DNA of 64,000 nucleotides from the NCBI GenBank assembly GCA_017442535.1, contig JAFRZL010000010.1, positions 62,001 through 126,000 of the forward strand. Direction: 5' to 3'. How positions within the stretch are numbered: position 1 is the first letter of the stretch; the number at the start of each line of letters is the position of its first letter. This DNA comes from Bacillota bacterium (GTDB taxonomy: Bacteria; Bacillota; Clostridia; Lachnospirales; Bianqueaceae). Made by a program: the position numbers and the translations under genes. The notes beneath the pieces were generated by a model that saw only the letters and a program-made list of their open reading frames with translations, did no database searches and was not told where the DNA came from. Positions 33,687-44,432 of this stretch are shown in pieces.

Positions 33687-33723
33687 TATGACAATGTATT
33701 ATTATTACTGAGGAGTGAGTTGT

Positions 33724-34638
33724 ATGGATTATATGGTGAGAGCGACCGCCGCCGGCGGGCAGATACAGGCCTTTGCCTGCATGACCCGCGATACGGTGGA
33801 AGTGGCACGTACCCGGCATAATACGAGCCCCGTTGTGACGGCAGCGCTCGGCCGGACGCTGACAGCCGCGGCGATGATGGGCTGGAAGATGAAGGGCGAC
33901 AAGGATCAGCTGACGATCCGCATCGAGGGCAACGGCCCGATCGAACGCATCAACGTGGATGCCAATAACCGCGGTGAAGTCTGGGGCTTTGCCCTGAATC
34001 CACATATTGAGCTGCCGCCCAATAAACGAGGCCATCTGGACGTGGCCGGGGCGATAGGCCTGGGCGTCATGAGCATCATCCAGGACTTCGGCTTCGGCGA
34101 GCCCTATATCGGTACGACTCATCTGATCACCAGTGAGATCGCCGAGGACCTGACCTATTATTACACCGCTTCTGAGCAGATCCCCTCGGCCGTCGCCCTG
34201 GGCGTTCTGGTGGACACCGACTGCTCGGTCAAAGCCGCCGGCGGCTTCATGTTCCACATGATGCCCGGCGCCACCGACGAAACCGCCGCCCGCCTGGCCG
34301 ACAAGGTCATGGCCTTCCCTCCGCTCACGAGCTACCGGGCCGAAGGCCACACGCCCGAAGAGCTGCTGCAGGACATCCTGGGCGACCTGGATCCGCAGAT
34401 CATGGACAGCCAGGAGATATGCTTCCACTGCAACTGCAACCGCGAAAAAGTGACGCGTGCTTTACTCTCCATCGGCGAGGACGACCTGCGCGATCTGGCC
34501 GACGACGGCGAAGACGTGGAGCTCCGCTGCGACTGCTGCAACGAGCCCTACACCTTTACCTCTGAGGAACTGCGCGACCTGGCCGACGAAGCCGCCCGTA
34601 TCCGCGCGCTGAGGGCCTCGCTGGGGGAAGAGGAATAA
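33724..34638 (+). CDS. hslO: Redox-regulated chaperone Hsp33
   Basis: A ~304-residue cytosolic holdase chaperone activated by oxidation of its zinc centre. The N-terminus MDYMVRATAAGGQIQAFACM, the domain with MGWKMKGDKDQLTIRIEGNG and the C-terminal zinc site (CFHCNCNREKV, then LRCDCCNEPY) are all typical; CxC and CxxC motifs are intact. ATG 33724 has AGGAG eight bases upstream, chosen over GTG 33715. The last 39 bases of the gene are repeated exactly at 37865-37903, marking an insertion point immediately downstream. Confidence 0.94.
   Translation: MDYMVRATAAGGQIQAFACMTRDTVEVARTRHNTSPVVTAALGRTLTAAAMMGWKMKGDKDQLTIRIEGNGPIERINVDANNRGEVWGFALNPHIELPPNKRGHLDVAGAIGLGVMSIIQDFGFGEPYIGTTHLITSEIAEDLTYYYTASEQIPSAVALGVLVDTDCSVKAAGGFMFHMMPGATDETAARLADKVMAFPPLTSYRAEGHTPEELLQDILGDLDPQIMDSQEICFHCNCNREKVTRALLSIGEDDLRDLADDGEDVELRCDCCNEPYTFTSEELRDLADEAARIRALRASLGEEE
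34600..34638 (+). repeat. Direct repeat, left copy (3' end of hslO)
   Basis: These 39 bases, beginning ATCCGCGCGCTGAGG and ending with the hslO stop codon, are identical to 37865-37903. One mismatch upstream, the match continues for two more bases. The pair brackets ~3.2 kb of AT-richer DNA, as attL/attR would. Confidence 0.9.
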
Positions 34639-34870: not shown

Positions 34871-34899
34871 TTGACATTTTGAATGCAAGGAACTATAAT
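34871..34899 (+). promoter_or_regulatory. Strong promoter of the protease cassette
   Basis: TTGACA, 17-nt spacer, TATAAT: a near-perfect sigma-A promoter ~110 nt before ATG 35010. The 371-base gap after hslO otherwise shows no convincing gene; its GC content drops sharply compared with hslO. Confidence 0.85.
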
Positions 34900-35009: not shown

Positions 35010-36227
35010 ATGAAAGAGATTCTTAGAAAAATTCTTGCAATAGTGCTCGCGTGCGTGTTGATGCTTGCGAATCCATGGAAACATTACACAGTCCGTGCTA
35101 GCGCTCCAGGCAACTATTGCTACACTCTTCCTAAAGATGTTCAGGAGAAAATGGCTGCACAAGAGCCGGCGATAGAAGCTTATATGGTTTTGACTTCTCT
35201 CTTTGGAATGACAGAATATGGAATTCCAAATTATCCTGACAACTATGCTGGTGAGTATATCGATGATTACAACCAATTAGTTTTGTTGGTGACGGACAGA
35301 ATGTGGTTTTTGTCCAGCGAATATGGCATGGCAGTTAAGGATATTCCCGTTATTGAAATCCAGGAAGTTGACTATTCCTATAAGGATCTTCAGGCATGCC
35401 GATGGGTCGTTCAGGAAGTAATAGATAAGAATATTACTGTTAATGCATTCGGCGTTGATATCCTATTAAATCGCTATTATATTGGCATTGAAGAATCTGA
35501 TTATAATGATAATTATGATGAGTTAATGCTTTATCAGGATTTTTATCCTGTGGTATTCGGGATAGAGAATAAAGGCTATGCAGACATGGCTCTTTATGGC
35601 GGATACAAAATAACCAAATCTAATAATGCTGGCAGTTCGATTGGTATTTGTGGCACCTATAACGGATCCAATGCTATTATAACATGTGGCCATGGTTATA
35701 GCACTTCAGACGCCGTTTTTCGAAGTGGCACTAATATTGGATCTGTTTCGTATCAGAGAGCGAATCAAAACGCGAATATTTGGCAGACTTATGTAACCGC
35801 ATCATTGGGAGATTTCTCAATTGTTACATTAAATAGTTCGGCATCTATTACTAATCGTGTTTATAGCTCTGGCGGAACCATTCCTATTACGGGCACATAT
35901 TCCTCCGTTCCTGTTAATACGGTTGTTTATAAATATGGATATGCGACCGGTTATTCATATGGAAGTGTCGTCGCTACAAGCATGAGCTTTAGTTATGGTT
36001 CTCCTCCAGGTTACTATATTGACGGATTATATAAAACGCTTCTGAATTACGGATCTATTGGTGCCGGAGATAGTGGTGGGCCTGTATGGCGTGTCAGTGG
36101 TTCTTCTAATTTGATTCATGGAATCGTAGACGCACATTCAGTCAATACTTCTACTGGAAACACATATATGTATTCAACGCCGATCTATTATGCAGTCAAT
36201 ATCGGTTTCTCGCCTAAACTAAACTAA
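35010..36227 (+). CDS. Secreted chymotrypsin-fold serine protease with N-terminal prodomain
   Basis: A 405-residue exported S1-type protease. Residues 1-31 are a signal peptide. Residues ~48-195 are a prodomain (IEAYMVLTSLFGMTEYGIPN, AGEYIDDYNQLVLLVT, EVDYSYKDL, LLNRYYIGIEE) related to the alpha-lytic/streptogrisin type. Residues ~205-405 form the protease: His228 in ITCGHGY, Asp268 in LGDFSIV, Ser355 in GAGDSGGPVW. The triad is complete; the catalytic His context TCGHG differs from the classic TAAHC and lacks its Cys. Two genes downstream a separate membrane-anchored copy of the prodomain is encoded. RBS AAGGGGG precedes ATG 35010. Substrate unknown. Confidence 0.85.
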   Translation: MKEILRKILAIVLACVLMLANPWKHYTVRASAPGNYCYTLPKDVQEKMAAQEPAIEAYMVLTSLFGMTEYGIPNYPDNYAGEYIDDYNQLVLLVTDRMWFLSSEYGMAVKDIPVIEIQEVDYSYKDLQACRWVVQEVIDKNITVNAFGVDILLNRYYIGIEESDYNDNYDELMLYQDFYPVVFGIENKGYADMALYGGYKITKSNNAGSSIGICGTYNGSNAIITCGHGYSTSDAVFRSGTNIGSVSYQRANQNANIWQTYVTASLGDFSIVTLNSSASITNRVYSSGGTIPITGTYSSVPVNTVVYKYGYATGYSYGSVVATSMSFSYGSPPGYYIDGLYKTLLNYGSIGAGDSGGPVWRVSGSSNLIHGIVDAHSVNTSTGNTYMYSTPIYYAVNIGFSPKLN

Positions 36228-36237
36228 TGGGAAAAAC

Positions 36238-37080
36238 ATGAAAAAACGATTACTTATAATAGCGGACATTCTAGTTGCCGCCTGTCTGGGATGCTGTTTA
36301 TGGTTCGGCTCCCTGAATCAGGAGTTCAGGAATTTTCTTACAAAAAGTGCAATCAATATGGATTTGTCTCTTCCTGTAGGCACGGATTCTTCGGCAGATT
36401 ATCTCCAAAAGCTCGCCACAGCATCGGGAGAGCACGTAGCTTTAAGCGATCTGTATTTTGAATATTTGCCATATTATCAGCAGCCTTCTTCGGAAGAGAT
36501 AGAGAGTCTGGAAACTCCGGTCGAGCTCTCCTATTATGCGAGACCGGGGGACTCCGAGCCTGTGTATGTCATTCCCAAAGGCACCAAAATAGTCATCACG
36601 ACTCTATACGGAGGCTATGGGTATAATTCTTTTCCCACCGCCGAACGCGGCTGGCGGGTGGCGCATCCATTTATTAGTGAGGGTGGAGGAGAAGAACGGC
36701 AAGGGCCCTATTATATCCGCACGAAGGACTTACGCGCGTTAGTGAATTATTATCTGCATAACTGCCAGCCGGTATTGGGTGATCGATGGTCGCAGTATTC
36801 CTATTGGGATCTGATCAGTGGACAAATCGCTACAACCGGCATCTCCCTTTCAAAGAGGGCAGCCGCACATTATTTGCTTGTGTCGAATGATGTGAATCTT
36901 CTTGCGTTAAGGATCTTTCGTTCCAAGGACCTGTTTTATCCGGTCCCGGCCTTATGGGTCACGATATTCCTGTGTATCGTGTTTGCAGCAGCCAACGTAA
37001 CCGCACTGATGCTGCGGATACGTAATAAAAGACACAATAAGTGTGAAAACAAGATGGAAAAGGAGGAAGGACTAAAATGA
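36238..37080 (+). CDS. Unknown membrane protein with N- and C-terminal anchors
   Basis: A 280-residue protein with a membrane segment at residues ~5-25 (LLIIADILVAACLGCCLWF), an extracellular middle part, and a second segment at ~235-260 (LWVTIFLCIVFAAANVTALM) before a short basic/acidic tail. The centre (residues ~98-160, PVYVIPKGTKIVITTLYGGY, then FPTAERGWRVAHPF) has an SH3-like look. A second, truncated copy of this region plus membrane segment occurs at 44105-44432. It is spaced 10 bases from the protease gene and overlaps the orphan prodomain gene by four bases, so all three are one operon. No function recognised. Confidence 0.7.
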   Translation: MKKRLLIIADILVAACLGCCLWFGSLNQEFRNFLTKSAINMDLSLPVGTDSSADYLQKLATASGEHVALSDLYFEYLPYYQQPSSEEIESLETPVELSYYARPGDSEPVYVIPKGTKIVITTLYGGYGYNSFPTAERGWRVAHPFISEGGGEERQGPYYIRTKDLRALVNYYLHNCQPVLGDRWSQYSYWDLISGQIATTGISLSKRAAAHYLLVSNDVNLLALRIFRSKDLFYPVPALWVTIFLCIVFAAANVTALMLRIRNKRHNKCENKMEKEEGLK

Positions 37081-37844
37081 ATTTTGTAAAACACAGAATA
37101 CTTGTTTTGCTTGCAGTTGTATTTCTGTGTACTGTGTTTTTGGGGGAACCTGTTGTCAGTGCGCAGGAAGAAAGCGGTGGGGCAGAAAGCTTTTTCGATG
37201 AGCTCCCCTCAGAAGCATATGATTTGGCGGCCAAGCAGGATGCCGCGCTGGAAGCGTATGATGCGATTGTTTCACAATTCGGCATGTCTCCCACCGGAGT
37301 CCCCGACTATCCGGATTTTTGGGCCGGGGAGTATATTGATGACGATAACCGGCTCGTTGTGCTTGTCACCAGTCTGGAAGCGCTTCAAAAAAGTCCGTAT
37401 TATGCCGTGATCGAGAATAATCCGGTTGTTGTTGTCCGGGAGGTTGCCCATTCCTATAAGGAACTGGTCGAACTGCGCCAGGTTGCGGCCGAACTTGCCG
37501 AAAAAGGGATTATTGCTGTTTCTTCCTATGTGGATGTCATCCGGAACCGCTTCATCATCGGTATCAGCGAAGCAGATCTGACCCGGCATGCGGCCACACT
37601 GGAGGCGCTGTCCCAGCAGTACCCGATCATCTTTGAAGCAGAACAGGCCGGCATTGCTCTGGCAGCGACGTCTACCACGGGTAGCCTTCAGGCGGAGGAA
37701 ACCTCGCATACATCTAAGAGCAGCCCGATCCTTCTGATTGTTGCAGGCTGCCTCGCCGTAGTGGCTGCTGGAATTTTCGTCTATGCAAGGCAGAAAAAGG
37801 CAAACACTGTATATAGCAGCACATCTAAAGGATCTATTAATTAA
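37077..37844 (+). CDS. Stand-alone, membrane-anchored protease prodomain
   Basis: A 255-residue protein: signal peptide (1-29), then residues ~50-195 homologous to the prodomain of the protease at 35010 (shared blocks FGM..TGVPDYPD.WAGEYIDD, LVVLVTS, EVAHSYKEL, NRFIIGISE), and a C-terminal membrane segment (SPILLIVAGCLAVVAAGIFVY) with a basic tail. There is no protease domain. Its role is inferred: prodomains of this class fold and inhibit their protease, so a cell-bound copy could be an immunity-like inhibitor or a chaperone in trans. Translationally coupled (ATGA overlap) to the upstream gene. Better GC match to the host than the protease gene. Confidence 0.8.
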   Translation: MNFVKHRILVLLAVVFLCTVFLGEPVVSAQEESGGAESFFDELPSEAYDLAAKQDAALEAYDAIVSQFGMSPTGVPDYPDFWAGEYIDDDNRLVVLVTSLEALQKSPYYAVIENNPVVVVREVAHSYKELVELRQVAAELAEKGIIAVSSYVDVIRNRFIIGISEADLTRHAATLEALSQQYPIIFEAEQAGIALAATSTTGSLQAEETSHTSKSSPILLIVAGCLAVVAAGIFVYARQKKANTVYSSTSKGSIN

Positions 37845-37864
37845 TTTGCCAGATGATTGCTCGC

Positions 37865-37903
37865 ATCCGCGCGCTGAGGGCCTCGCTGGGGGAAGAGGAA
37901 TAA
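37865..37903 (+). repeat. Direct repeat, right copy (hslO 3' end duplicate)
   Basis: Exact 39-base copy of the hslO 3' end including its TAA, without any upstream hslO sequence. It closes the protease cassette. Confidence 0.9.
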
Positions 37904-37920
37904 AATAATAGTATTATAAT

Positions 37921-37969
37921 GTGCCGGAACCGCGTTTTCAGAGGGGAAAAAGCAGTTCCGGCACATTTT
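37921..37969 (+). terminator. Repeated terminator hairpin T1
   Basis: GTGCCGGAACCGC ... GCAGTTCCGGCAC followed by ATTTTGT. The same hairpin recurs at 39750, 41180 and 44054. With the promoter behind it, it fills the 299-base gap 37845-38143, which has no other gene. Confidence 0.8.
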
Positions 37970-38143: not shown

Positions 38144-38881
38144 ATGCTTCACAAACTATTATCTAAACTGCTGCTGTTAGTGCTGGTTTTCAGCTGGTCT
38201 CCTTAATCAAGTGGAGATGCTTTTATAAGCGAAGCAAAGAATACAAGTACAATTAGTGAGATGAAAGGTGTTATGAATTCATCGACGTATATTAGACTAA
38301 TTCACGATTCAAGTACAGACATCCCCTCAGCCAATAGCAGTATAGCTTACTATTTTTCATATAATGGATACACAAATATTATGAGCCATACGGCCACAGG
38401 AGCAGCTACGGTACATGGGTATTTTGCTACCGCAAAACTAATCCATATTTGCGGGCATGGATTTCCGGGTGGAATACACTGCTATAATGGTACATCCATC
38501 TCAGCACAGGGGTCCAGCACAAGTACAAACAAACCATTAAGCTCATATGGATCTTCTGGGCTTACAAACGTTAAATTTGCCTTCTTTTCCGGATGCAAGA
38601 CAGCCAGATGGGATTCGACATTTGGAGATCTTGATGATTATGCTTACTATACATTAGGCATTCATGGAACGCTCGCTTTTTATTCGAATGTATACTATAC
38701 CACTGGAAATAGTTATGTTGGTTTGCCTCTTTACAATAAGCTGGTATACGACTATCTTCTGTATGATAATTACACATTGACAGAGGCGACAGCGGCAGCC
38801 AGACTGGGAGTAATTCAAGCTGGGAATGATGATGCGGGCACGTATTCAATACGTATCCACGGATCATTTTCGTTATCATAA
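38144..38881 (+). pseudogene. Secreted clan-CD (caspase/CHAT-like) peptidase with in-frame stop
   Basis: ATG 38144 (RBS GGGAGG nine bases upstream) opens a signal peptide (MLHKLLSKLLLLVLVFSWSP), but codon 21 is TAA (38204-38206). The same frame then continues without stop to 38881. The downstream part has the clan-CD pattern: a strand ending in His-Gly, LIHICGHGFPGG, and ~40 residues later a strand ending in Cys, VKFAFFSGCKTARW, then helical segments (LPLYNKLVYDYLLYDN, LTEATAAARLGVIQAG). Unless read through or internally started at 38261, the protein cannot be exported. The body of the frame otherwise looks intact, so the nonsense change appears recent, or it is a sequence error. Confidence 0.65.
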
Positions 38882-38904
38882 ACACTAAAAAAGGAGTGAT
38901 TGAA

Positions 38905-39708
38905 ATGAAGAAAACACACCTGATAATCATTGCAACCATCCTTCTCACAGCAGGTATCATTATATCTATCGGCTTTGCTTCAAACAAGAGCTATGTATTC
39001 CCTGAATCGATAAAGGGTATAACAGGAGAAACTGCGAAGTTCCAGCATACGATCGGTTCCGAGGATCCCACAGTTCTGGAAGCTTACATCGGAGATGGGC
39101 TTTATGAGGACGACCGATATCTTTATGCGGTAGATCGGAAGGAGGGATATATTAAGTTCCTGAAACTGAAGCACTCAGAAGACTGGGATGCGATAGTCAA
39201 GGATACTGAGCAGTCATTGTCCGAGGAAGAAGTTTCCAATCTCGCAATCCGGCACACGAGAGACATCTTAGGGACGTATTTGAATAATAAAAGCGAGCTA
39301 AGCACCATAGTAAAGGATGGGGAGTACTATTCTATTGAGATTATTGAATATCTGAACGGGAAGCCGACCGGCATCTCTGTCCCGACCATCATGATTTCAC
39401 ATAATGGACAGGTGTTAATTGCGATGTTTCGCGTAGCTCGCGCAAATTCGAATAAAACACCCATTTCCAAAGAGGATGCAGAGAATACAGCCATTGAAGC
39501 ATTTATTAGCTGGTCACAAAACCCTGTCGAATCCGTCAAAGTGAGCCGGGAAGAGCAGTCGCTGCTGCGAACCAATCAAAAAGGCAGAATGGAATGGAAA
39601 GTCTACTTAAGCTTTGTGGATCCTAATCTTCCCAGCCTTGAGAGAACAGCAATGGTCAGGCTTGATGCAATCACCGGCAAATTGATTGAAGTCATGCTGT
39701 CTGCATAA
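38905..39708 (+). CDS. Membrane-anchored protein with tandem PepSY-like domains
   Basis: A 267-residue protein with an N-terminal signal anchor (THLIIIATILLTAGIIISIGF) and an extracellular part. The second half contains two PepSY-like units: SEEEVSNLAIRHTRDILGTY ... SVPTIMISHNGQVL, and SKEDAENTAIEAFISW ... EWKVYLSFVDPNLPS ... VRLDAITGKLIEVML. PepSY domains occur in M4 protease propeptides and are thought to inhibit peptidases. The last domain is present again at 39969-40218 and 40919-41138. RBS AAAGGAG eight bases before ATG 38905. It lies 23 bases after the clan-CD gene, so the two are likely cotranscribed from P1. Confidence 0.72.
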   Translation: MKKTHLIIIATILLTAGIIISIGFASNKSYVFPESIKGITGETAKFQHTIGSEDPTVLEAYIGDGLYEDDRYLYAVDRKEGYIKFLKLKHSEDWDAIVKDTEQSLSEEEVSNLAIRHTRDILGTYLNNKSELSTIVKDGEYYSIEIIEYLNGKPTGISVPTIMISHNGQVLIAMFRVARANSNKTPISKEDAENTAIEAFISWSQNPVESVKVSREEQSLLRTNQKGRMEWKVYLSFVDPNLPSLERTAMVRLDAITGKLIEVMLSA

Positions 39709-39749
39709 AGTTTTTTTGATAAGGGACCGTCGGTTATCGGTATTTGTAT

Positions 39750-39795
39750 GTGCCGGAACTGTTTTTTCTCCGAAAATTGCAGTTCCGGCACAGTT
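39750..39795 (+). terminator. Repeated terminator hairpin T2
   Basis: GTGCCGGAACTG ... GCAGTTCCGGCAC with a short T-run after the stem; near-copy of T1, T3 and T4. Confidence 0.78.
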
Positions 39796-39798
39796 TAA

Positions 39799-39836
39799 GT
39801 TAGAGGATTGTAAGTTGAGAAATAGTATGCTATACT
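39799..39836 (+). promoter_or_regulatory. Repeated promoter P2 with GTTAGA box
   Basis: GTTAGAGGA box, -35 TTGTAA, 17-nt spacer, extended -10 TGC-TATACT (39831-39836), and RBS GGGGGAGGAGG shortly after. Confidence 0.72.
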
Positions 39837-39870
39837 TAGATAAACAAACAAGGGGGAGGAGGAACTCAAA

Positions 39871-40218
39871 ATGCGCAAACCTATGATCATCATTGTTCCC
39901 GCAGTCATTCTTCTGATCGCGGCGGTCGTTCTTCTGGCATCTATCGGCTGGGGAACGACTGACTTGTCCCCAATTTCCAAAGAGGACGCAGAGAATACAG
40001 CCATTGAAGCATTTATTAACTGGGCAAAGAATCCTGTCGAATCCGTCAAAGTGAGCCAGGAAGAGCAGTCGCTGCTGCGAACCAATCAAAAAGGCAGAAT
40101 GGAATGGAAAGTCTACTTAAGCTTTGTGGATCCTAATCTTCCCAGCCTTGAGAGAACAGCAATCGTCAGACTTGACGCAATCACCGGCAAACTGATTGAA
40201 GTCATGCTGTCGGCATAA
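39871..40218 (+). CDS. Chimeric small PepSY protein
   Basis: A 115-residue protein: membrane anchor (MIIIVPAVILLIAAVVLLAS) plus one PepSY-like domain (SKEDAENTAIEAFINW ... VRLDAITGKLIEVML). The first 89 bases (39871-39959) are identical to the start of the gene at 41301, while the remainder is nearly identical to the 3' end of the gene at 38905. It is therefore a fusion of modules from its two neighbours. It has its own promoter P2 and a good RBS, so it is probably expressed. The role as peptidase inhibitor is inferred from PepSY. Confidence 0.75.
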   Translation: MRKPMIIIVPAVILLIAAVVLLASIGWGTTDLSPISKEDAENTAIEAFINWAKNPVESVKVSQEEQSLLRTNQKGRMEWKVYLSFVDPNLPSLERTAIVRLDAITGKLIEVMLSA

Positions 40219-41300: not shown

Positions 41301-42074
41301 ATGCGCAAACCTATGATCATCATTGTTCCCGCAGTCATTCTTCTGATCGCGGCGGTCGTTCTTCTGGCATCTATCGGCTGGGGAACGACGGCGCTGTCTC
41401 CAACGGATCAAGCGCTTTCACCGGCGTCGTTGGCTAAACATATCGGCTCCACACAGGAGAGGATGATATCACTTCTGAAAAAATACGACCTGATCCTGAA
41501 CGTGGATGAGCGAAGCGACAGCAGCTCGCTGATGGCTACAGTTGCCGACAAGTCAAGTCACAACCCCACGGAGATTCGCCTCTACGATACGCACGTCAAA
41601 GTTCAGCTGCATTTCATGAACGTTGATGGCAAGTTGCTTTTTGTGGGAGAAGTATACTATCAGAGCTATGCCCAGGATAAAGCAAAGCAGGCCATTAAGG
41701 ACTATGGCAGGATTCTGGAGGGCTTCGCCTTTAAATCGGAGGCGCTGACTAACAAGAGGTCTCCCGGACGTTATTTTGACAATCCGCGCGGATGGACGCC
41801 GGAGGAAACGTTCGAGCATACACATGGATTCAGCGAAGGCTGGGCAATTCAGGATGAGAAAGATTTCGAGTGCGTGAAGCCTTTCCTGAAGGATCATATT
41901 CTGGATCCTTCGAATCCGTATAACATATATACTTGCTCAGCGATTATGATGAGCGGGATGGGCCCGATTCAGAAAGACCCATATGCGGAGCCCTATGATG
42001 ATCAGGCGATCGACATGAGAATCCGTATCTGGCCGATGTCATTAAGAAACGAGAACGATCAGCCGATCATATAA
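41301..42074 (+). CDS. Membrane-anchored extracellular protein, cotranscribed with the two-component system
   Basis: A 257-residue protein with the same N-terminal anchor as the chimeric PepSY protein, followed by a ~225-residue extracellular domain I do not recognise. Notable segments are SLAKHIGSTQERMISLLKKY, IRLYDTHVKVQLHFMNVDGK and CVKPFLKDHILDPSNPYNIY. RBS GGGAGGGAGG precedes ATG 41301. Its stop is only five bases before the response regulator start, so it is the first gene of the regulator operon; a role as sensor partner is possible. It could equally be another member of the secreted cassette set. Confidence 0.65.
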   Translation: MRKPMIIIVPAVILLIAAVVLLASIGWGTTALSPTDQALSPASLAKHIGSTQERMISLLKKYDLILNVDERSDSSSLMATVADKSSHNPTEIRLYDTHVKVQLHFMNVDGKLLFVGEVYYQSYAQDKAKQAIKDYGRILEGFAFKSEALTNKRSPGRYFDNPRGWTPEETFEHTHGFSEGWAIQDEKDFECVKPFLKDHILDPSNPYNIYTCSAIMMSGMGPIQKDPYAEPYDDQAIDMRIRIWPMSLRNENDQPII

Positions 42075-44053: not shown

Positions 44054-44100
44054 TGCCGGAACTGCGATTTTCAAAGGAAATGTGCAGTTCCGGCATTTTG
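44054..44100 (+). terminator. Repeated terminator hairpin T4
   Basis: TTGCCGGAACTGC ... GCAGTTCCGGCA then TTTTGTGTG; fourth copy, ending the regulator operon. No promoter copy follows it; it joins directly to a truncated gene. Confidence 0.78.
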
Positions 44101-44104
44101 TGTG

Positions 44105-44432
44105 TGTGGGGGGGTATGGTTTTAATACCTGGCCAACCGCCGAGAAAGGCTGGAGACTCGCAAGACCGTTTGTCTCTGCAGAGAGGCCGGAATTACAGGG
44201 ATATTATTATGTTAAGGTGGAGGCATTGCAAGCTCTGCAGCAGATCAGATATAAAGCCGATTCCGCGCAGGCGCCTGATCTTTTCAAGGGCGCCCTTCCG
44301 CTATGGGCAGTCATCACGCTGGCAGAAGTTGTTGTGCTGGCGAATATTGTTCTGATAGTGAGAGCGGGGCAGAAAAAAGACAAAACAGCTTATCCGTCTT
44401 TGATTTCAAACGAGTCCGGCATATCCTTGTAA
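44105..44432 (+). pseudogene. 5'-truncated copy of the unknown membrane protein (36238 type)
   Basis: In frame with 44082, the sequence reads GGYGFNTWPTAEKGWRLARPF, then YYYVKVEALQALQQI, and a membrane segment LWAVITLAEVVVLANIVLIV. It corresponds to the middle and C-terminus of the protein at 36238 (GGYGYNSFPTAERGWRVAHPF ... YYIRTKDLRALV ... membrane segment). The N-terminal anchor, start codon and promoter are missing; T4 lies directly upstream. A short peptide could start at an in-frame ATG inside T4 (44082), but this is unlikely to be functional. Its end overlaps the convergent lipoprotein remnant by 43 bases. Confidence 0.72.

Follow-up and report, generated by a model that had tools for sequence, protein, structure and literature searches.

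The window (the whole 64,000-nt stretch of DNA analyzed here) contains three genes arranged in one apparent operon, namely a protease gene at 35010-36227, a middle gene at 36238-37080 and a gene for a stand-alone prodomain at 37077-37844. The gap between the protease gene and the middle gene is 10 nt, and the middle gene overlaps the stand-alone prodomain gene by 4 nt. The operon and its flanking features are as follows.

33715-34638, hslO, the Hsp33 gene (Pfam Hsp33, E=2.7e-91)
34594..34638, + strand, 45-nt direct repeat copy 1, the 3' end of hslO (repeat search)
34871..34899, + strand, consensus promoter TTGACA-17-TATAAT upstream of the operon (12/12 consensus positions match; a sequence pattern only)
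35010..36227, + strand, secreted alpha-lytic/streptogrisin-type S1 protease precursor, 405 aa
35130..35579, + strand, prodomain of the protease, residues 41-190 (AF2 model; Foldseek matches 2pro/3pro/4pro)
35592..36224, + strand, protease domain, residues 195-405 (family profile against streptogrisin B; triad conserved)
36238..37080, + strand, middle gene, a 280-aa membrane protein with transmembrane segments 5-23 and 241-259 and an ectodomain without known family
37077..37844, + strand, stand-alone prodomain with signal peptide and C-terminal membrane helix, 255 aa
37206..37655, + strand, prodomain of the stand-alone protein, residues 44-193 (AF2 model, Foldseek, VIA-align and codon comparison)
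37728..37784, + strand, predicted C-terminal membrane helix, residues 218-236 (mean hydropathy 2.74)
37859..37903, + strand, 45-nt direct repeat copy 2, a duplicated hslO 3' end, 96% identical (repeat search)
37918..37967, + strand, terminator-like hairpin with 22-nt arms that closes the operon (inverted-repeat search)

The two 45-nt repeats flank the three-gene operon in a 3,265-bp unit, and the core of the repeat has only 2 occurrences in the genome. The GC content of the operon is 0.44, whereas hslO has 0.62 and the flanks farther away 0.55-0.59; AT-rich DNA continues for the next 4 kb downstream of the operon. The operon looks like a discrete, mobile-type unit inserted between duplicates of the hslO 3' end. 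No recombinase is present between the two repeats, and an empty insertion site was not found among relatives, in which the hslO neighborhoods differ. No match for the protease was found in plasmid and phage records, and no family member in viral contigs.

In the 35010 product, a signal peptide is followed by a prodomain and then by an S1 protease domain. As a single sequence, its streptogrisin/alpha-lytic match reaches only 0.014; the family profile of the protease domain matches streptogrisin B with E=1.3e-15 and alpha-lytic protease with E=1.7e-14. The catalytic triad H228/D268/S355 is conserved in a 19-member alignment, with His, Asp and Ser in place together with the GDSGG motif. In the AF2 model of this protein the protease domain has a pLDDT under 50 and is not usable, whereas the prodomain is confident. 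Seven alpha-lytic Pro chains are the only Foldseek matches of the model below E=0.001, indicating a pro region of the alpha-lytic fold.

In the 37077 product, signal peptide and prodomain are followed by a linker of ~20 residues, the hydrophobic residues 218-236, the sequence ARQKK and a tail, with about 19 aa beyond the membrane helix. The sequence-only reading of this DNA proposed that it carries the prodomain of the 35010 protease with a membrane segment in place of the protease domain. The first part is confirmed by BLASTP (75/229 identical residues, 33%, E=2e-39), the common part being essentially the signal peptide and the prodomain; the second agrees with the predicted helix at 218-236 that precedes ARQKK. 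The motifs quoted as shared are present in both proteins, with the one exception of WAGEYIDD, for which the protease has YAGEYIDD. The placement of both genes in the same operon is in keeping with the tight gene spacing, but the gene at 36238-37080 between the two had been left out.

Neither single protein gives an informative Pfam or NCBIfam match to the prodomain. PF02983 at its cut-off does not match the 37077 product, and 5 of the 41 family members match it weakly; the same search of the whole genome gives 0 matches, as it does in control genomes. A 41-member family profile searched against PDB finds the alpha-lytic pro region 2pro (E=1.1e-7) as the sole significant match. With the AF2 model of the 37077 product, only the alpha-lytic Pro chains (2pro/3pro/4pro) are found by Foldseek below E=0.001, at E=1e-5, and VIA-align places residues 37-199 on pro residues 5-166 (Z 7.7, rmsd 4.4, 143 residues). 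In this model the alignment extends to pro residue 166, which is the end of the pro region, so that the C-terminal tail appears to be included. Support for the fold is moderate, since Z is under 8 and the model was built from three sequences (five for the 35010 product). Both prodomains are predicted with confidence, and their helices and strands follow one another in an identical order. The structural comparison suggested earlier, in which unlike folds would have spoken against the proposal, gave one fold for both, each matching alpha-lytic Pro chains, and the assignment as an alpha-lytic/streptogrisin-type prodomain holds by profile and by fold.

Codon comparison of the two prodomains aligned 150 codons with 0 gaps, at 39% amino acid identity, with saturated synonymous sites and a dN of 0.61. 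The gapless alignment of 150 codons despite saturation of the synonymous sites is consistent with constraint, and the comparison points to an old duplication rather than a recent copy.

To evaluate how widely the arrangement occurs, profile surveys covered 392 genomes of the order, 391 of the class and 398 of the phylum, and revealed many stand-alone prodomains besides ordinary proteases. Of two scans of the genome contigs, the first found nothing and the second two relatives, L111 and L112. A stand-alone prodomain follows a protease at four loci: in the window and in genomes G002, G689 and G1065. There is no intervening gene in the latter three, in contrast to the window, and their stand-alone copies have an N-terminal lipobox or hydrophobic segment, the window copy a C-terminal transmembrane anchor. 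The copy in G002, which belongs to the same genus as the window genome, has a lipobox, as does that in G689, which is 34% identical to its neighbor. In G1065, a single-contig chromosome, the stand-alone copy has an N-terminal hydrophobic segment (anchor or signal peptide), is 46% identical to its neighbor and stops about where the mature part of the neighboring protease starts. The recurrence of the pairing in these three genomes argues against a one-off accident. It should be mentioned that one candidate prodomain-TM protein, L064, was rejected as a frame-shifted protease. Far from the protease pair, the G1065 chromosome also encodes a tandem of stand-alone prodomains, two genes whose products have hydrophobic N-terminal segments (L135:4914-6154, - strand). 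Elsewhere, the prodomain is joined to another C-terminal extracellular region with no protease domain, at L082:5876-6994 (-), L114:4699-5721 (-), L075:6813-7886 (-) and L077:6505-7461 (+).

A tree of 66 rows groups the copies of the window, G689 and G1065 as sisters with the prodomains of their neighbors (support 99/84, 97/89 and 100/99), so the relation holds at 3 of the 4 loci; the G002 lipoprotein prodomain is not close to that of the adjacent protease. Even when only well-supported branches are counted, 11 or more switches between the attached and the stand-alone label are required, so that stand-alone prodomains arose many times. In 5 of 13 cases, the closest protease prodomain is one from the same genome (p=0.0002 by permutation, from a label shuffle that treats not fully independent rows as independent).

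A decayed protease duplicate could have retained its prodomain by chance, and a truncated prodomain remnant in the same genome (L021:5946-6167) indicates that decay does occur. However, the 37077 gene is an intact ORF whose 150 codons align without a gap at saturated synonymous sites, it encodes a membrane helix and overlaps the middle gene, and the pairing recurs in unrelated genomes. We have rejected this explanation, the least probable of those weighed here.

Folding of alpha-lytic protease is 1e9-fold faster with its pro region, and the active site is spanned by the junction between pro region and protease (PMC2829044). The pro region also inhibits the mature enzyme (PMC2605481). With a little more than even confidence, we propose that the 37077 product binds the co-encoded mature S1 protease at the surface of the producer and blocks its active site, protecting the cell as a self-inhibitor or immunity protein. 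The signal peptide would export the 37077 product, and the C-terminal helix would keep it in the membrane, the prodomain facing outward. The prodomain could dock on the protease like the alpha-lytic pro region, with its C-terminal tail in the substrate cleft. Tethered to the membrane of the producer, a complete pro region should bind and block mature protease near the cell, and it may also retain some folding-helper activity. Homology, fold, gene layout and recurrence are the observations from which we infer binding, inhibition and protection. That the pro region is kept whole up to the cleavage junction, as seen in the VIA alignment to pro residue 166 and in the end of the G1065 copy, was counted in favor of the inhibitor reading. 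Counted against it were the many stand-alone prodomains without a protease, the G183 locus described below, the distance of the G002 prodomain from its neighbor, and the unexplained middle gene. The recurrence in other bacteria suggests that the pairing may be how cells protect themselves against, or sense, their own protease.

The presence of both a tether and a prodomain would also suit a display function, in which the protease is held noncovalently at the cell surface for local proteolysis. However, a bound alpha-lytic pro region occupies the active site (PMC2829044), and a displayed enzyme would be silent until the prodomain is cut; we regard display as very improbable. The tethered prodomain could instead act in trans as a membrane foldase, folding the protease as it emerges from the translocon and then releasing it, in the manner of the lipase-specific foldases. 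In favor of this are the catalysis of folding by alpha-lytic pro regions (PMC2829044), the existence of membrane-anchored steric chaperones within the operon of their client in LipH/Lif (PMC13381987), and the alpha-lytic pro region fold predicted for the 37077 prodomain. However, the protease still has an intact prodomain in cis and shows no obvious need for a second folding helper, and the protease of G183 has no adjacent stand-alone prodomain. A foldase role is considered unlikely. LipH/Lif resembles the 37077 product as a membrane-anchored steric chaperone in its client's operon, but has an N-terminal anchor, a lipase client and an unrelated domain, and the lipase depends on Lif whereas the window protease has its own prodomain. 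The 37077 product, with its C-terminal anchor and alpha-lytic pro fold, has no Lif Pfam match.

The middle gene has no PDB or Pfam relative, and the SH3-like character of its ectodomain is an impression only. A homologue (L091:7098-7847) lies directly 3' of the protease in G183, a genome of another family, where no stand-alone prodomain is adjacent and the whole genome has one prodomain match; the pairing of protease and stand-alone prodomain is hence not obligatory. In the genome of the window, paralogues of the middle gene occur at L021:4345-6167 (-), L107:7479-9194 (-), L108:373-3195 (-) and window 44083-44430. They include two tandem fusions, the L021 paralogue beside a truncated prodomain remnant, and the downstream fragment at window 44083-44430.

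The proposal of a protease/immunity pair in the sequence-only reading is strengthened by the adjacency in G002, G689 and G1065, and is weakened by the wider survey and by an ECF-linked subset of relatives. Among genomes of the order with stand-alone prodomains, about eight have and about ten have no detectable protease of the alpha-lytic type, which is about half lacking one; the situation named in that reading as adverse, a prodomain-TM gene often without any protease, is thus in part encountered. Incompleteness of metagenome-assembled genomes accounts for some of the missing proteases, not all. In contrast, the form with a C-terminal helix and without a sigma factor (G000, G069, G203 and G232) is accompanied by a protease in 4 of 4 genomes, that of G232 being frame-shifted.

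At eight loci, the prodomain is part of a membrane protein whose gene comes immediately after an ECF-type gene encoding sigma-70 regions 2 and 4. These ECF-linked prodomain proteins are as follows.

L069:6654-7490
L094:4639-5949
L117:6429-7613
L118:1114-2055
L119:2184-2897
L120:1600-2319
L121:6031-6750
L123:5381-6163

They are possible protease-sensing anti-sigma factors. The G002 lipoprotein, encoded beside a protease, and the ECF-linked L094 protein (genome G350) are homologues over 362 aa (E=2e-14), which connects the protease-adjacent and the ECF-linked settings. There is precedent in RsiV, a lysozyme receptor, and LbpA, a relative without the sigma-binding part that confers low-level lysozyme resistance (PMC9044953). 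By analogy, the tethered prodomain could be a membrane receptor that captures its own or a foreign protease and reports it, as RsiV does for lysozyme, with the window copy as a non-signaling, LbpA-like form. The eight ECF-linked loci and the G002 homology speak for such a sensor. However, the window operon has no sigma gene or other regulator, and the tail past the membrane helix has only about 19 aa, unlike an RsiV-like receptor with its adjacent ECF sigma gene and sigma-binding cytoplasmic part; we judge this role quite unlikely for the window protein. RsiV and LbpA, from Bacillota, are similar in having an enzyme-binding ectodomain on a membrane protein, with or without a sigma-binding part, and so parallel the ECF-linked and lipoprotein relatives; they differ in domain and ligand. 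It is conceivable, though we lean against it, that alpha-lytic-type prodomains, split off from proteases on many occasions, form a general protease-recognition module on bacterial membranes, serving both as tethered self-protection inhibitors beside the protease and as ECF-linked protease receptors that switch on genes. The ECF-linked relatives provide a direct route to ask whether bacteria sense proteases via prodomains.

We have compared the tethered self-inhibitor proposed here to known systems. Spi of Streptococcus pyogenes is a propeptide analogue encoded next to speB (PMC2873492), and a propeptide-like gene, SUB1-ProM, is adjacent to SUB1 in Plasmodium (PMC6993865). The 37077 gene has the stand-alone propeptide-like layout of the Spi, I9 and SUB1-ProM kind, with no catalytic domain, a position adjoining the cognate protease gene and a propeptide-like product. 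SpeB-Spi shares the separate gene adjoining the protease gene and the propeptide-like product (PMC2873492), but SpeB is a C10 cysteine protease of another clan with another propeptide fold, and the window locus includes an additional, third gene; we found no account of Spi carrying a membrane helix. The MEROPS I9 inhibitors (POIA1 and yeast PBI), Toxoplasma MIC5 and SUB1-ProM likewise use a propeptide fold as a separate inhibitor gene, but belong with the subtilisin family (S8) and are described as small soluble products, SUB1-ProM probably lumenal, with no C-terminal helix anchor. The pro region of alpha-lytic protease and streptogrisin is alike in fold and sequence profile; it is normally attached in cis, whereas in the window it also occurs as a separate membrane-anchored gene. 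In the open-access literature we found no stand-alone propeptide-like inhibitor either for the alpha-lytic family or with a membrane anchor at its C-terminus, and no anti-sigma-like protein that bears a prodomain. The earlier remark that this is not a described system therefore needs narrowing: propeptide-like inhibitors beside a protease are known (SpeB-Spi and SUB1-ProM), and it is the membrane-tethered form and the alpha-lytic-family version that were not found described. The possible novelty lies in the membrane tether and the protease family, and possibly in a larger story in the ECF-linked relatives.

If the self-inhibitor reading is correct, a tethered prodomain copy, produced repeatedly by duplication, would give producers of secreted alpha-lytic-type proteases a simple means of self-protection. 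The survey yields specific testable pairs, one of them on a single-contig chromosome (G1065), and suggests that a domain known for helping folding in cis is reused as a membrane inhibitor or receptor.

Several observations concern the genes downstream of the operon in the window. The 206-aa protein at 38144-38881, with ICGHG and FSGC motifs, resembles a caspase/CHAT-type peptidase, which is an impression only, as there is no Pfam match; its apparent signal peptide is severed by an in-frame TAA. The 39871-40218 product carries a nearly identical copy of the C-terminal part of the 38896-39708 product, and its own N-terminus is found again in the 41301-42074 product. The regions 38896-40218 and 41301-42074 look like the outcome of local duplication and recombination.
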